A stretch of DNA of 64,000 nt, from assembly GCF_000378605.1 (NCBI RefSeq), contig NZ_KB905155.1:124001-188000 (forward strand). The letters run 5' to 3'. The first letter of the stretch is position 1. Each line of letters begins with the position of its first letter. The translations under genes were made by a program, and so were the position numbers. Source of the DNA: Thioalkalivibrio sp. ALJ21. GTDB lineage: Bacteria; Pseudomonadota; Gammaproteobacteria; Ectothiorhodospirales; Ectothiorhodospiraceae. Of the stretch, positions 30,101 to 48,543 are shown in pieces. The notes under the pieces are model-generated. The model made no database searches. It was not told the origin of the DNA and worked only from the letters and a program-made list of their open reading frames with translations.

Positions 30101-30769
30101 ATGTCCGATCGCGAACTGAAAGATTTGCTCTATGACCAGGTCGCCCGGATTGGCAAGGCGGCGTCCAGCCCGAAGCGGCTGGAACTGATCGAGGTCCTGG
30201 TGCAGGGGGAGAAGAGCGTCGACCAGCTCGCGGCGGATGCCCAGATCAGCGTCAAGCTGGCCAGTGCCCATCTGAAGGAGCTGCGCCAGGCCCATCTGGT
30301 GGAGTCCCGGCGCGATGGACGGCGTATCTTCTACCGTCTGGCAGACCCGCGGGTGGCCGACTTCTGGGTTGTGCTGCGGGAGCTGGCCGAGAGCCGGTTG
30401 CTGGAGTTGCAGGGCGCTGTGCGCGACATGGCAGCCAGTGCCGGCGACATGGTCCCGCTGAGCGGCCATGAGCTTCTGGAGCAGGCACGCAAGGGCGAGG
30501 TCATCGTGCTGGACGTTCGCCCGGACACCGAGTACGCCACCGCGCATCTGCCGCACGCCCGCTCCATCCCGCTGCGCGAGTTGAAGCAGCGTCTGGACGA
30601 ATTGGCGCCGGATGTCCCGGTCGTTGCCTATTGCCGGGGACCGTACTGCCTGATGGCGCGCGATGCGGTCGCGATCCTGGGCGAGCACGGCTTCCGCGCC
30701 GTCCGGTTGGACCACGGTGTCGCCGAATGGCGCCATCAGGGTCTGCCCCTGGAACAAGGGAAACACTGA
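30101..30769 (+). CDS. ArsR-family regulator fused to a rhodanese domain
   Basis: A 222-residue protein. Residues ~5-95 form a winged helix-turn-helix of the ArsR/SmtB type (ASSPKRLELIEVL, DAQISVKLASAHLKELRQAHLVESRRDGRRIFYRL). Residues ~120-220 form a rhodanese domain with the loop YCRGPYCLMA, where C178 is in the active-site position and C183 follows. The DNA-binding domain has no cysteine, unlike the persulfide sensors BigR/SqrR, so any sulfur sensing would have to use the rhodanese cysteines. The neighbouring MBL and MFS genes and the operator at 30973 suggest it controls them. The last codons and the stop lie in a palindrome. Confidence 0.85.
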   Translation: MSDRELKDLLYDQVARIGKAASSPKRLELIEVLVQGEKSVDQLAADAQISVKLASAHLKELRQAHLVESRRDGRRIFYRLADPRVADFWVVLRELAESRLLELQGAVRDMAASAGDMVPLSGHELLEQARKGEVIVLDVRPDTEYATAHLPHARSIPLRELKQRLDELAPDVPVVAYCRGPYCLMARDAVAILGEHGFRAVRLDHGVAEWRHQGLPLEQGKH

Positions 30770-30781
30770 TCAGTCTTTCCC
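30758..30781. repeat. 24-bp palindrome of the GGGAAACACTGATC type at a gene end
   Basis: GGGAAACACTGA and TCAGTCTTTCCC form a near-perfect palindrome with one mismatched pair. It supplies the final codons (Gly-Lys-His) and the stop of the ArsR-rhodanese gene. Related copies lie at 43200, 44301 and 48459. It may also act as a transcript-end hairpin. Confidence 0.7.
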
Positions 30782-42167: not shown

Positions 42168-43211
42168 ATGCCCGAGCTTGGTTTCGTGGTCCCGGGGGCA
42201 CTGGACCAGCCCACCGGCGGGTACCGCTACGACGCGCGCATGATCGCCGGGCTGCGCGAGCAGGGCTGGCGGATCGAGCTGCGCGAGCTGCAGGGCCAGT
42301 TCCCCGGGCCTGATGGGCGCGCGGAACGAGCCCTCGAAGAGGTCCTGGCGGGCTTTCCCGATGGCATGCGGGTGCTGCTCGATGGACTGGCCGCGGGTGC
42401 GTATCCCGCCACCTTGCAGCGTCACGCAGCGCGCCTGCGGCTCGTCTACCTGATGCATCACCCGCTGGGCCTGGAGGCGGGGCTTGTGCCCACGCGCTCG
42501 CGCGAACTGCTCGCGTCCGAGCGTGCGGCCGTGGCCCTCGCCTCGCGGGTGGTCGTGACCAGTGACTATACGCGGGCGCAGGTGGCCGACTGGGGTGTGC
42601 CGTCCGAACGCCTTTGCAGCATCCCGCCTGGCGTGGAACCGGCGCCGCTAGCCCGTGGCCCGGAGGACGGGGTGCCGGTGCTGTTATGCGTGGCCGCCTG
42701 GGTGCCCCGCAAGGGACAGCTCGAGCTGGTGCGCGCGCTGACCGGCCTGCGCGATTGGTCCTGGCGGGCCGAGCTGGCCGGTGCCATGGATCGCGACCCG
42801 GACTACACGTCCGCTGTGCGTGCGACCATTGCCGAGAGTGGTCTGGGTTCGCGGATCTCGGCCCCGGGCGTGCTGACACGCAAGGGCTTGGCGGAGCGAT
42901 ATGACCAGGCCTCGATCTTCGTGCTGCCGAGCGCCTACGAGGGCTTTGGCATGGCCTTTACCGAGGCGATGATGCGCGGGCTCCCAGTGATCGGGACCAC
43001 CGGTGGGGCTATCCCCCGGACTGTGCCGGAGACCGCCGGCCTGCTGGTGCAGCCCGGCGACGTGGACGCCTTGCGCCGGGCGCTGGAAAGCCTGCTGTGC
43101 GACTCCGAACAGCGTCGGGGCATGGGCCGCGCGGGGCGCGCGCATGCCGAGTCGTTGCCGGGCTGGACGGAGGGTGCCCGTCGTCTGGCCCAGTGGCTAG
43201 GGAAACACTGA
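42168..43211 (+). CDS. GT4 family glycosyltransferase
   Basis: A 347-residue GT-B enzyme. N-terminal GALDQPTGGYRYDARMIAGL and the C-terminal nucleotide-sugar domain from VPVLLCVAAWVPRKGQLELVRAL to the E-x7-E motif in YEGFGMAFTEAMMRGLPVIGT are plain. It lacks a signal and membrane span, so it acts in the cytoplasm. It follows the pterin-fold gene by 3 bases, so its acceptor may be the product of that pathway. The final Gly-Lys-His-stop is encoded by the left end of an inserted MITE-like element, so the native C-terminus may have been changed. Confidence 0.87.
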   Translation: MPELGFVVPGALDQPTGGYRYDARMIAGLREQGWRIELRELQGQFPGPDGRAERALEEVLAGFPDGMRVLLDGLAAGAYPATLQRHAARLRLVYLMHHPLGLEAGLVPTRSRELLASERAAVALASRVVVTSDYTRAQVADWGVPSERLCSIPPGVEPAPLARGPEDGVPVLLCVAAWVPRKGQLELVRALTGLRDWSWRAELAGAMDRDPDYTSAVRATIAESGLGSRISAPGVLTRKGLAERYDQASIFVLPSAYEGFGMAFTEAMMRGLPVIGTTGGAIPRTVPETAGLLVQPGDVDALRRALESLLCDSEQRRGMGRAGRAHAESLPGWTEGARRLAQWLGKH

Positions 43212-43497
43212 TCCATGTACACGCTCGCGTGGGTACCCCAGGTTTTCCGAGACAAGGCGCGGTGCGCAGCCTGTAGTGCTTCTACCGGTCCGTTGTTGAT
43301 TGATTCGGGCCGCAACGCAGGATCAGGGAACCTGGGGTGCCAACCGCGAAGGGGCTCGGCCGCCCGTTGTTATCAAAAACGGGCATGCGCACGGCGTTGC
43401 GGCTCCCTTGTGCAGAATGACTGCACGGCAGTCGCCGCGCCTTGTTCGCACGCAAAAGCGACGAAGCAGCGAGCGTGTACATGGATCAGTGTTTCCA
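43200..43497. mobile_element. MITE-like element with 28-bp perfect terminal inverted repeats
   Basis: 43201-43228 and 43469-43496 are exact inverted copies of one another, starting GGAAACACTGATCCATG. Weaker inverted similarity continues inside (TTTTCC...ACAAGGCGCGG near 43242-43262 against CCGCGCCTTGTTCGCACGCAAAA near 43436-43458; GCCGCAACGC against GCGTTGCGGC). No protein is encoded. The ends match the short GGGAAACACTGATC palindromes elsewhere in the window, which may be internally deleted relatives. The element fills the whole 301-base gap between the GT4 and methyltransferase genes and overlaps the GT4 stop. Confidence 0.82.
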
Positions 43498-43512
43498 TGG
43501 AGGCGGCCTGAG

Positions 43513-44313
43513 ATGCCCGAACGCTTTGCCGGGGACTGGCTGGCCCTGCGCGAACCCGCGGATCATGCGGCCCGACCGGACTCTCTGCTCGGCCCCTTGA
43601 ACGACGCGCTTGCTCTATGCGAATGGCCTCTGCAGGTGATGGATCTGGGCAGCGGGGCCGGTTCCAACCTGCGTTACCTGGCGCCGCGCCTGACGGGGCC
43701 GCAGCACTGGACCCTGGTGGATCATGACGCCGATCTTCTGGCGACCATCGCGGCTCCGCACGAGGCCGTTACCATCACCCCGCAGGTGCTCGATTTCTCG
43801 GGTGGGCCACCCCCGATCCCGCCGGATGCAGGTCTGGTGACGGCCTCTGCCCTGCTGGATCTGGTTTCGGCGAACTGGCTCGACCGCCTGGTGATGACGC
43901 TGATCGAATCGCCGGTCCCGGCGCTGTTCGCGCTCAGCTACGATGGGCGCATCGAGTGGAGCCACCCGCATGCGGCCGACGAGCGCGTGCGTACCGCAGT
44001 GAATCGCCATCAGCGTACGGACAAGGGCTTTGGCCCGGCCCTGGGGCCCGATGCCGCGGCTTATTGTGCCCGTGCCTTGACCACCAACGGCCTTCGTGTG
44101 ATCACCGAGACCAGTGACTGGCGGCTGGGAAAGGGTCAGGCAGCGCTGGCGGCCGCGTTGATCGGAGGCTGGGCGGAGGCGGCCGCCGAGATGGAGCCGC
44201 AGGGTCGTCCATTGTTCCGGGACTGGGCGCGTTCCCGAGTCAGGGACATCGCGGACGGGCGGGTGCATCTGAGCGTTGGGCACTGCGATATGCTGGTGTT
44301 AGGGAAACGCTGA
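43513..44313 (+). CDS. class I SAM-dependent methyltransferase
   Basis: A 266-residue soluble methyltransferase: motif I is VMDLGSGAGSNLRYLAPRL (about residues 38-56), followed by the acidic TLVDHDADLL and ASALLDLVSANWLDRLV. It starts at the ATG at 43513, which is 16 bases after the MITE-like element, so its promoter or coupling to the GT4 gene may be altered by that insertion. Its stop lies inside another GGGAAAC palindrome. It probably modifies the product of the dehydrogenase-pterin-GT cluster. Confidence 0.82.
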   Translation: MPERFAGDWLALREPADHAARPDSLLGPLNDALALCEWPLQVMDLGSGAGSNLRYLAPRLTGPQHWTLVDHDADLLATIAAPHEAVTITPQVLDFSGGPPPIPPDAGLVTASALLDLVSANWLDRLVMTLIESPVPALFALSYDGRIEWSHPHAADERVRTAVNRHQRTDKGFGPALGPDAAAYCARALTTNGLRVITETSDWRLGKGQAALAAALIGGWAEAAAEMEPQGRPLFRDWARSRVRDIADGRVHLSVGHCDMLVLGKR

Positions 44314-44326
44314 TCAGTGTTTCCCT
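44301..44326. repeat. 26-bp palindrome at the end of the methyltransferase gene
   Basis: AGGGAAACGCTGA and TCAGTGTTTCCCT pair along their whole length if one G-U pair is allowed. It encodes the terminal Gly-Lys-Arg and the stop of the methyltransferase, and is the same repeat type as at 30758 and the ends of the 43200 element. Confidence 0.75.
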
Positions 44327-44447: not shown

Positions 44448-45089
44448 ATGAAAAGACCACAACACTTTTTCAAGGGTGTTGCATGCGTTGCCGGCCTGCT
44501 ACTGGCGGGACCCGCGCTGGCCCAGGATGCAGATTCCGCGTCTGACAAGCCGGGCGCCATGCACGCGCCCACCATCCCCGGTCCTTATGGCTACCCGGGA
44601 ATGCACGGTCAGGGTGGACATCCTGGCGGGCCGGGCATGATGCACCGAGAAGCGGTCCCGGGGCCATATGGCCCAGGCCCCCGGGGGGCTGGCCATAGAG
44701 GCATGATGTACGGGCCCATGGGCCCGGGCCCCCATGGGCCCGGGCATGGTTACGGGCCTGGTTACGGCTACGGGTACGGACACGGGCACGGCTATGGTCC
44801 CGGTTACGGCCAGCGGCCTTATCACGGTCCCTATCACGGAGGGCCGATGCAGTACGGCATGCCGTACGGCCCCGGCGGGAAGGAGCGCATGCGCGACTTT
44901 GAACCGGACTTCGATCCCGAGGACCGCGAGGCGATGCGCGAGCACATGCGCGAACGCCAGGCCGAGCACGAAAAAATGCGCGAGGCACACCGCCAGGCCG
45001 CGGAGCGTGCGCGCGAGGTCTATCGCGAGGAAATGCGCCGTCACCGCGAGGCCATGCAAGAGCAGCAAACCGACGCCAACGGATCCTGA
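44448..45089 (+). CDS. exported Gly/His/Tyr-rich protein with charged C-terminal helix
   Basis: A 213-residue protein: signal peptide cleaved after LLLAGPALAQ, then ~120 residues of low complexity rich in Gly, Pro, Tyr, His and Met (GYGYGHGHGYGPGYG), then a strongly charged helix (REHMRERQAEHEKMREAH) with many Met, Arg and Glu. The His/Met content could bind metal ions and the tail recalls CpxP/ZraP-type periplasmic proteins, but neither is proven. A hairpin (CGCCAGA 44392-44398 / TCTGGCG 44418-44424) lies before the GGAG site. It is followed by another low-complexity exported protein. Confidence 0.7.
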   Translation: MKRPQHFFKGVACVAGLLLAGPALAQDADSASDKPGAMHAPTIPGPYGYPGMHGQGGHPGGPGMMHREAVPGPYGPGPRGAGHRGMMYGPMGPGPHGPGHGYGPGYGYGYGHGHGYGPGYGQRPYHGPYHGGPMQYGMPYGPGGKERMRDFEPDFDPEDREAMREHMRERQAEHEKMREAHRQAAERAREVYREEMRRHREAMQEQQTDANGS

Positions 45090-45166
45090 ATCCTGGCGCG
45101 ACCTACGGGGGCCGGATGTTCGTCCGGCCCCGAATTCACGCAGTCAGCTCCGACGGAGGTTTCGTC

Positions 45167-45856
45167 ATGAGCCAGTCACGCAGTCTTCTCAAGGCCGGGG
45201 TCTTTGGAGCCCTGATGGCCATCCCCTTTACCGTTTCCGCACAGTACGCTCCTGGCGACAATTCCGGTCTTGCGCCTTATTCCGGGCCTTCCGGTCTGGG
45301 TGAACGCCCCGCCTTTGAGAGCGAACGGGGCCACGGTCTGGATCAAGTCCAGGCACCAGGTGGCGGTCCGGGTGGCGACCCGGGTGGCCCGGCTGGCGGC
45401 GCCCCTCCGGGTGGCGCGCCGGGGGGGCCCCCAGGCGGAGCGCCTCCGGGCGGTACCCCGGGCGGTGCACCGCCGCCTGGGCAGGGCGAACCCCCGCAGC
45501 AACGAGACCCGCAACAACGCGATGTAGAGCCGGGCGAGCCCCCGGGCGCGCGTGATCCCCAAGGTCGCGACCCGCAGGGCGCTCCGCCGGGACAAGGGCC
45601 GCAGGGTCAGCCGCCTCAGGGCCAGCCGCCGCAAGGGCAACCGCCCCAGGGCCAGCCACCTCAGGGTCAGCCACCTCAGGGGCAACCGCCCCAGGGCCAG
45701 CCGCCGGGTGGTCAGGATATGCCCCCTCGTGATGCCGAACCCCCGGGTGGGACCAGCGGGGATGGCCCCGGCGATCCTCCCCCGACCGAGGGTGGTATGG
45801 GTGACGAACCGTCCTTTGACGACGACACCGACCTGACCCCGGAGATGAACGATTGA
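45167..45856 (+). CDS. exported collagen-like Gly/Pro/Gln-rich protein
   Basis: A 229-residue protein with signal peptide (GALMAIPFTVSAQ). The mature part is almost wholly Gly-, Pro- and Gln-rich: a GGAPPGGAPGGPPGGAPPGG block, then seven consecutive QPPQG-type pentads, then an acidic C-terminus (DDDTDLTPEMND). It is probably disordered or matrix-like. The GGAGGT site 6 bases before the ATG at 45167 fixes the start; an upstream in-frame ATG has no such site. No anchor is visible, so it is periplasmic or secreted. Confidence 0.75.
   Translation: MSQSRSLLKAGVFGALMAIPFTVSAQYAPGDNSGLAPYSGPSGLGERPAFESERGHGLDQVQAPGGGPGGDPGGPAGGAPPGGAPGGPPGGAPPGGTPGGAPPPGQGEPPQQRDPQQRDVEPGEPPGARDPQGRDPQGAPPGQGPQGQPPQGQPPQGQPPQGQPPQGQPPQGQPPQGQPPGGQDMPPRDAEPPGGTSGDGPGDPPPTEGGMGDEPSFDDDTDLTPEMND
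45608..45712 (+). repeat. seven 15-bp tandem repeats within a coding region
   Basis: Seven copies of a CAGCCGCCTCAGGGC-like unit encode six QPPQG pentapeptides and one QPPGG. Synonymous differences among copies (CCGCCT, CCGCCG, CCACCT) show that they are not a very recent expansion. Copy number could vary between strains by slippage. Confidence 0.9.
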
Positions 45857-46869: not shown

Positions 46870-48459
46870 ATGTTTAATCGTCCTGGTCGCCGCGTGCGCA
46901 AGCAGCTCAAGCTGCTGAGCGATCGCCTCGCCGAAGAAAATCCGGTCCTCAAGGGGGTCGTCGATCCCTTCCGCGAACTGGACCGGGTCGGCTACGCCTC
47001 CGGGCTGCTGAATCCGCAGGACGACTCCTACGCCTTCACCATCTCCTGGTGGCCGATGATCGCGGTACTGGGGACGTTCTCCTCGGGCAAATCCACGTTT
47101 ATCAACGAATACGTCGGCACCACCGTTCAGCGCAGTGGGTCGCAGGCGGTGGACGACAAGTTCACGGTCATCAGCTACGGTGGCAGCGAGCGGGTGCAGG
47201 AGTTGCCGGGACTGGCACTGGACGGCGATCCGCGCTTCCCGTTCTACCGCGTATCCGACGAGATCGAGCGCATCACCGATGGCGGTGGTCGCACGGTGGA
47301 CCATTTTCTGGCGATGAAGACCGCCAACTCCGAGCGCCTGCGCGGGCGTATCCTGATCGACTCGCCCGGGTTCGATGCCGACGAGCAGCGTGCCACGATC
47401 CTGCAGCTGACCGACCACATCATCGATCTGTCCGACCTGGTGGTCGTCTTCTTCGATGCGCGGCACCCGGAACCGGGCGCGATGCGCGACACGCTGGAGC
47501 ACCTGGTCAATCGCGTCGCCGAGCGCAACGATTTCAACAAACTGGTTTTCGTGCTCAACCAGATCGATACCACCTGGCGCGAGGACAACCTGGAGGAGGT
47601 CGTCTCCGCCTGGCAACGCGCGGTCGTGCGTCAGGGGAATGCCACCGGCCGTTTCTACTGCATGTTCAACGAGAGCGCCGGGGTCGAGATCGGCGACGAG
47701 CAGGTGCGCGAACGCTACGAGGAAAAGTCGCAGCGCGACCGCGCGGAGATCCACGAGAAGATCCAGGAGATCAGCTCGTCACGCTCGTACCGCATCCTCG
47801 GGTCGCTGCAGGCGATCGCCGAATCCATCGAAATGGATGCGTTGCCCGCCCTGCGTCGGGCCCTGGAACGATGGCGCCGCCGGGTATTGCAAGTCGATGC
47901 GGCGATGTTCGCGGTGATTGCCGTGATCCTGGGCGTGATCGGCCACAACACGGCGGGCGGGTTTGGCCCGTGGTTTGATGGCTCGGCCTGGTCGTCCATG
48001 GGGGATCACCCGATCTGGACGTCCGCCGGCATCATCGGTTTGGTCCTCGTACTGGCCGGGCTCCACTTCTTCAACCGCCGCTGGGTCGCGCGGCGTATCG
48101 CGCGCACGCTGCCGACCGAATCTGCCGCCGGTAACTGGCGGGCGGCGTTTGAAAAAAACACGCGCCCGTGGCGATTGATGCTGGGGCGTGCCCCGCTGGG
48201 CCTGGGACGGCGCAAGGTTGGCCGCCTGCATGCGCTGCGTGACCGCGCCGAGGCGTATATCCAGCGTCTGAATAACCAGTTTGTGGATGCCCGGCCGGTG
48301 TCGCGCACAGGTGGGCGGGCCTCGGCCGCCGATGTGCATCGCTCGGCAGAACAGGCACAATCGGGTACTGTGTCGGAGTCGACCGGTGATGCCGTACAGC
48401 AGGCACCGGCCGTCGAGACGCCAGGGGATGCAACCGCGGAGCGCCCCGAAGCGCGTTAG
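46870..48459 (+). CDS. dynamin-like GTPase with C-terminal membrane segment
   Basis: A 529-residue protein. The GTPase domain shows G1 LGTFSSGKSTF (residues ~67-77), G3 LIDSPGFD (about 160-167) and G4 NQID (about 234-237). The G1 form GxxSSGKST is typical of the dynamin/EHD and bacterial dynamin-like groups. A helical region follows, then two membrane spans (AAMFAVIAVILGVIGHN and IIGLVLVLAGLHFFN) and a basic tail with a disordered end. Bacterial dynamins remodel or repair membranes. It is present alone, not as the usual tandem pair. Confidence 0.78.
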   Translation: MFNRPGRRVRKQLKLLSDRLAEENPVLKGVVDPFRELDRVGYASGLLNPQDDSYAFTISWWPMIAVLGTFSSGKSTFINEYVGTTVQRSGSQAVDDKFTVISYGGSERVQELPGLALDGDPRFPFYRVSDEIERITDGGGRTVDHFLAMKTANSERLRGRILIDSPGFDADEQRATILQLTDHIIDLSDLVVVFFDARHPEPGAMRDTLEHLVNRVAERNDFNKLVFVLNQIDTTWREDNLEEVVSAWQRAVVRQGNATGRFYCMFNESAGVEIGDEQVRERYEEKSQRDRAEIHEKIQEISSSRSYRILGSLQAIAESIEMDALPALRRALERWRRRVLQVDAAMFAVIAVILGVIGHNTAGGFGPWFDGSAWSSMGDHPIWTSAGIIGLVLVLAGLHFFNRRWVARRIARTLPTESAAGNWRAAFEKNTRPWRLMLGRAPLGLGRRKVGRLHALRDRAEAYIQRLNNQFVDARPVSRTGGRASAADVHRSAEQAQSGTVSESTGDAVQQAPAVETPGDATAERPEAR

Positions 48460-48482
48460 GGAAACGCCGAGCGGCGTTCCCC
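48459..48482 (+). repeat. hairpin GGGAAACGCCG / CGGCGTTCCCC at a stop codon
   Basis: The hairpin begins at the last base of the GTPase stop codon (TAG) and has one bulged A. It is GGGAAACGC-like and related to the palindromes at 30758 and 44301. It may serve as a transcript end. Confidence 0.6.
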
Positions 48483-48543
48483 TGGTTAGTCCGCGATGCA
48501 TGGTTTCCTCGTCGGGGGGCGAGGGCCATGACGGAGTATCACC

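Follow-up and report, generated by a model that had tools for sequence, protein, structure and literature searches.

A MITE copy that provides the stop codon of a glycosyltransferase gene in Thioalkalivibrio sp. ALJ21 and the orientation bias of its family

The junction of a GT4 glycosyltransferase gene and the methyltransferase-like gene downstream of it in Thioalkalivibrio sp. ALJ21 is occupied by a non-coding element with exact inverted ends. Very probably it belongs to a non-autonomous IS5-type MITE family restricted to the genus, one copy of which landed in the 3' end of the GT4 gene. The copy supplies the last codons of this gene (Gly-Lys-His) together with a new stop. The insertion is ordinary MITE biology, cleanly documented by an empty site, a new stop codon and an identified partner. 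What is out of the ordinary, and worth following, is how the copies between co-directional genes are oriented: among 109 distinct insertions the ratio is 62:14. The features of the junction are collected in Table 1, where positions refer to the window, i.e. the whole analysed stretch of 64,000 nucleotides; the genes were called with a custom codon-score caller and are not taken from an annotation.

Table 1. Features of the GT4/methyltransferase junction (window positions).
Feature	Position	Strand	Remark
GT4 glycosyltransferase gene, 347 aa	42168..43211	+	PF00534
Left copy of the 4-bp target, CTAG	43197..43200	.	CTGG in empty relatives
GT4 last codons Gly-Lys-His and TGA from the tip	43200..43211	+	codon GGG takes one flank base
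MITE copy, 296 bp	43201..43496	+	orientation "sense", that of its operon
Left terminal inverted repeat	43201..43228	+	ATG type over its first 16 bp, as is the left end of the autonomous IS
Helix P1, left side	43229..43244	+	
Helix P1, right side	43329..43344	+	
Right terminal inverted repeat	43469..43496	-	exact complement of the left repeat
Right copy of the 4-bp target, ATGG	43497..43500	.	CTGG in G004 and G040
Methyltransferase-like gene, 266 aa	43513..44313	+	weak sub-threshold PF13649 match only
22-bp mini-palindrome, two element tips joined	44303..44324	.	gives the methyltransferase gene its last codons and stop, GKR*

The two arms of the element are 28 nt long, 100% complementary and spaced by 240 nt. 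By arithmetic, the probability that arms of this kind would arise by chance no more than 300 bp apart in 64 kb is of the order of 1e-9 or less. Both the exact arms and a weaker symmetry continuing inside had been described in an earlier reading made from the sequence alone (hereafter the sequence-only reading), and both are real; the inner symmetry, with 88% pairing, is helix P1 of the MITE family. The same reading placed the element at 43200-43497. An element is indeed there, but the G at 43200 is part of the CTAG that flanks it, and the element proper spans 43201-43496. The ORF listing contains no transposase frame within these limits, as had been stated; the longest sense ORF of the copy has 98 aa and starts at an ATG within the left tip. 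The GT4 frame ends with QWLGKH*, with GGG AAA CAC TGA at the element tip, which agrees with the claim that the left end gives the gene its final Gly-Lys-His and stop, and the gap to the methyltransferase gene measures 301 bases as reported. The end of GT4 before the insertion can be seen in the relative G020, where it is WLEAV*; the insertion turned LEAV into LGKH. Downstream of the operon (window 44703-45856) there are two ORFs with strongly repetitive translations, rich in Gly/Pro/His/Tyr and in Gln/Pro.

The own genome (2.96 Mb, 5 contigs) contains many more copies. Forty of 89 candidates were scored, mostly full length and with 75-90% identity, and an interior 26-mer is found there in 50 copies with up to 3 mismatches. 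The 26-mer is present in 16 of the 30 genus genomes searched (5 to 69 copies per genome), the genus, Thioalkalivibrio, being taken from the names of database hits. Among the matches listed from GTDB contigs there are at least 80 loci (at least 106 stretches), all named Thioalkalivibrio. A 21-mer search with up to 2 mismatches, which covers close sequence only, hit 2 of 369 genomes of the class, both Thioalkalivibrio. The family was not seen outside Thioalkalivibrio in the searches done and by these sequence comparisons appears genus-restricted. No description of it was recognised in the literature searches, for which most subscription papers were out of reach.

Most copies measure 265-311 bp and nearly all 265-334 bp. 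Optional interior modules of ~14-16 bases give length steps of 266/281/296/310 and are freely combined between copies (set A1, 117 copies). As expected of a MITE, the elements are short, have no transposase gene, carry terminal inverted repeats and are dispersed in many copies; a target site duplication, empty sites at two loci and an autonomous element with the same ends were found as well. The named set of copies was picked by an exact interior 26-mer including part of helix P2; 32 of the 112 pattern matches were dropped for missing or edge ends and 79 distinct copies were kept. A length filter left out 3 of 120 copies. Two of the remaining 117 were dropped as mis-cut or rearranged from the arm, G-U/C-A and codon analyses, and the helix shuffle test kept all 117. 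The context analysis of the own genome spans 41 of its ~50 copies.

A 4-bp target duplication is exact in 43 of the 120 copies (26 CTAG, 12 TTAA) and has at most one mismatch in 77. The window copy is flanked by CTAG on the left and ATGG on the right, without an intact duplication, and its target is deduced from relatives. In G020 and G041 the GT4 junction carries no element and reads GTGGCTGGAGG without interruption, with CTGG at the place. The filled junctions read GTGGCTTG, element, CTGGAGG in G004; GTGGCTAA, element, CTGGAGG in G040; and GTGGCTAG, element, ATGGAGG in the window. Comparison of the empty flanks (G020, G041) with the filled ones (G004, G040, window) points to CTGG as the original target, which would have been duplicated and later changed; the flanks in the filled genomes would then be degraded CTGG copies. 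More distant relatives with a readable junction have no element between GT4 and the methyltransferase gene. A second locus (copy L034) is filled in the own genome and in G040 and empty in G041, G004 and G020; in the own genome this copy has CTAG on both sides and sits exactly on the stop codon of a gene.

Occupancy of the GT4 site does not match kinship. GT4 identity to the own gene is 96.3% in G040, 92.6% in G041 and 88.4% in G004, yet the closer G041 is empty and the farther G004 is filled. Because the GT4 of G041 is closer than that of G004, presence in the own genome, G040 and G004 with absence in G041 and G020 is at odds with one insertion event unless loss or transfer took place as well. 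The own element agrees with that of G004 at 94.3% without gaps and with that of G040 at 90.7%, a 15-base module being missing in G040. The simplest readings would be that the locus was lost or transferred and that sister copies rewrote elements where they stood.

Transposases with the PF05598 domain occur in 10 of the 30 genus genomes. In five MITE-bearing genomes (G010, G012, G021, G022 and G040) at least one of them lies in a 1.19-1.22-kb element with the MITE tips. The transposase of this element belongs to the IS5 family (NF033581, E 2e-95, 319 bits against a cut-off of 140; also PF05598 and PF01609). Autonomous ~1.2-kb elements of this family are found at loci L096, L097, L099, L100, L107, L108 and L110; in L107 the transposase gene occupies 910-1875 on the minus strand. 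The left end of the IS matches the tips of one MITE class (GGAAACRCTGATCAATG, 16/16), its right end matches those of a second class (GGARACRCTGATTTAATC, 15-16/16), and the MITEs look left/left or right/right ended. Past 16-17 bp MITE and IS have nothing clear in common, and for this reason the MITE is not a simple internal deletion of the IS. Target duplications of the 1.2-kb elements are exact as CTAG/CTAG (two copies), GTAG/GTAG, TAAG/TAAG and TTAA/TTAA and imperfect in G010 (CTAA/CTAC); the G021 element begins at the edge of the fetched stretch, which does not cover its left flank. A 4-bp YTAR duplication is usual for the IS5 group. The same end sequences in three IS copies of G040 suggest recent activity. 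In the own genome a profile search gave no matches to PF01609 or PF05598, and since no transposase of this type was found there, its MITE copies look like orphans.

The sequence-only reading had proposed a non-autonomous mobile element at the 3' end of the gene, and had suggested looking for further copies, for relatives with an empty site and for an autonomous element with the same ends. All three have been found and support the proposal. The outcome named as contrary to it, a single copy at the same locus in all relatives with no empty site, was not seen.

A probable course of events can be drawn from these sequences. An IS5 transposase would cut at the shared tips and insert the MITE at YTAR-like 4-mers, mobilisation in trans being predicted. 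Here the target would be CTGG in the last GT4 codons, and the tip, read in frame, gives GGG-AAA-CAC-TGA. GT4 lost its last residues only and gained a new stop, with the start of the methyltransferase gene downstream left intact. Without a transposase source in the own genome the copy probably evolves in place, its arms being kept alike and its interior modules swapped with sister copies, possibly by gene conversion or template switching. In 115 copies the 28-base arms differ by 1.6 mismatches within a copy vs 6.1 between copies. Between co-directional genes the element would be transcribed within the mRNA, where it is predicted to form a very stable hairpin. The simplest account of the mostly sense orientation would be that the opposite orientation harms the downstream gene more.

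The position of the element at a stop codon is common in the family. Of the 109 distinct insertions, 93 have one or more gene 3' ends facing them, and in 57 of these 93 the stop lies inside the element border. Among the 110 facing 3' ends, 30 stops are at position 0, 5 at +1, 14 at -11 and 8 at -15, which puts 35 stops within the duplicated target or at the base next to it and 22 within the tip; the window copy is a tip-stop case. Special targeting of stop codons was considered and rejected. A TAG or TAA stop is present at 35 of the 109 insertions (32%) and at 111 of 400 YTAR sites outside gene bodies (27.8%, 884 kb; Fisher p 0.40), and this share of sites predicts the observed number. No special targeting is needed because the target 4-mer itself contains TAG/TAA.

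The orientation of the copies is a different matter. Co-directional genes flank 29 of the 41 copies in the own genome, 22 of which have the orientation of the window copy and 7 the opposite one (p 0.008). The corresponding numbers are 49 v 8 in the named set of 79 (p 3e-8) and 62 v 14 among the 109 combined distinct insertions (p 2e-8), of which 16 are divergent and 17 convergent. The combined figures come from merging insertions by strict blastn joining on either flank. An initial tblastx clustering (either flank, E 1e-6) chained 53 copies into one group and was replaced by stricter blastn and tblastx runs; a bias is seen in both cases (31:7 and 62-63:14). A promoter or terminator motif does not account for it (the window copy and L019 gave neither a promoter nor an intrinsic terminator), nor does coding constraint or, in G040, replication direction.

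Purging alone, to which we give slightly less than an even chance, would remove antisense copies as polar on the downstream gene (e.g. via Rho, after an early stop of translation) and leave sense copies nearly neutral. In the sense direction, translation from the tip ATG covers all but 30 nt or less of the element in 69 of the 78 copies with this ATG, vs 9 of 79 in the antisense direction; such early stops in the antisense direction fit the polarity account and do not prove it. However, the bias is present with a tip ATG (55:12) and also without it (16:3), and antisense copies were not seen in more isolated positions. In the sense frame open from the tip ATG, stop-creating differences are not specially avoided (observed/expected 0.79) and the three codon positions vary alike (0.307/0.267/0.312 bits), which speaks against purging as well. 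A conserved peptide, also considered, was rejected on the same two observations.

It is less probable, and on balance unlikely, that the family has been co-opted as an intercistronic RNA element. The structure of the sense transcript would then stabilise, process or insulate the operon mRNA in the manner of ERIC or Correia/NEMIS, and copies would be kept for it. Besides the 62:14 orientation, the covariation of the helices argues for this. Pairing is seen in 96.9% of the cells of the named helices vs 91.4% in shuffles, and double-change cells number 530 vs 146, a value reached by none of 500 shuffles (117 copies; relatedness inflates the counts). The inner helices P1 and H1 are each above all 200 shuffles. 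The RNA fold of the window copy has -167 kcal/mol (z -9.5); however, the complement folds nearly as well (-152, z -8.4). The counts of G-U v C-A cells point in both directions: the inner helices are somewhat richer in G-U (51 v 35 in P1, 14 v 4 in H1), but the terminal helix is poorer (36 v 91), so that it is not on the sense RNA that its pairing is maintained. The counts suggest correction of the terminal helix in the DNA and a slight leaning of the inner helices towards the sense RNA. Helix P1 crosses P2 and P3, which hardly vary; the crossing is not read as a pseudoknot and may represent alternative folds. Further points against an RNA function are that the loci are not conserved, copies clustering at most in pairs across genomes, and that five loci gave no Rfam match above threshold; one sub-threshold chance match lies outside any element. 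In its full form the idea is speculative and doubtful: an IS5-type MITE family that now serves Thioalkalivibrio operons as an intercistronic RNA element, is kept just past stops in mainly one orientation, and has had its arms and modular hairpins homogenised in situ since the transposase was lost. If it were true, one selfish repeat would mark or tune many operon junctions at once.

A bias made at insertion, by the transposase or by replication direction and not by selection, is improbable. Replication-linked bias combined with gene co-orientation could mimic the pattern, but no two-arc strand pattern emerges from the 47 copies listed in G040 (best concordance 0.66 vs 0.65 in shuffles), CTAG and TTAA, the main targets, are palindromic and carry no direction, and the bias is also present in copies off stop codons.

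A 22-bp palindrome composed of two tips accompanies the family in all 16 MITE-bearing genomes and occurs in 1 of the 14 others (weakly, with 3 mismatches); some matches at 3 mismatches resemble single element ends. These mini-palindromes look like collapsed MITE copies. The one which ends the methyltransferase gene (LGKR*) is the same in G040, degraded in G004 and reduced to one half in G041. Another lies just past a gene at window 30759-30780, and the same site has altered-centre palindromes in G004, G020 and G040 and none in G041. The gene at 46870-48459 has the stop TAG followed immediately by a palindrome-like tip, GGAAACGCCGAGCGGCGTTCCCC (window 48457-48485). It is hardly credible that the family itself consists of palindromic repeats of the REP/REPIN type, mobilised by a RAYT transposase: GTAG-type REPs are reported in Thioalkalivibrio genomes (accessible part of PMC3733652) and the 22-bp palindromes are at hand, but the elements have 4-bp target duplications, share their ends with an IS5 element and nearly all measure 265-334 bp, not 20-40, and for the full-length element this class is refuted by size and ends.

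The window copy is thus best described as a member of the IS5-type MITE family. The stop-codon rule of the family, the orientation bias and the homogenisation of the arms are beyond the reach of the sequence-only reading. The new points seem to be the agreement of arms within a copy, far above that between copies, the apparent rewriting in place of copies at one locus, and the orientation bias. Sixteen genomes with dozens of insertions make a natural experiment, in which one can see how operons tolerate or use hairpins that are transcribed between their genes.

Among known systems, the IS5 family (NF033581), as represented by the 1.2-kb elements of the relatives, has the same 16-bp tips and 4-bp YTAR-like duplications; unlike it, the MITE has no clear common interior and no transposase. 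To the same family belongs ISAba12 of Acinetobacter. The nearest precedents, as far as the available portions of the sources extend, are MITEAba12, QMITE2, Chunjie and ERIC. MITEAba12 (PMC6382973) shares its tips with the resident ISAba12, has target duplications in a minority of copies (40%) and includes one copy fused to a gene 3' end, to which it gave the stop; it differs in length (111-114 bp), in its 9-bp duplications and weak fold, and in that its authors, in the part available, report no orientation preference. QMITE2 of Coxiella burnetii (PMC5896051, in part) is likewise a palindromic MITE with many copies in full and short forms, one insertion of which forms the C-terminus of enhC, whose stop follows shortly after, but its duplications are 7-9 bp, its sequence is different, and the part available gives no analysis of orientation in operons. 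New gene 3' ends made by a MITE are therefore not new, since MITEAba12 and QMITE2 already show them. The Chunjie MITE of Geobacter uraniireducens (from the accessible part of the review PMC10969869) has another sequence and another host and is alike by description only: ~38 copies of variable length (178-235 bp), and insertion in an operon whose structure is undisturbed, according to the title. ERIC (PMC2229807, partial text) is shorter (~127 bp), with other ends and another host; like the present family, it is a structured intergenic MITE found in mRNAs, and its effect depends on orientation.
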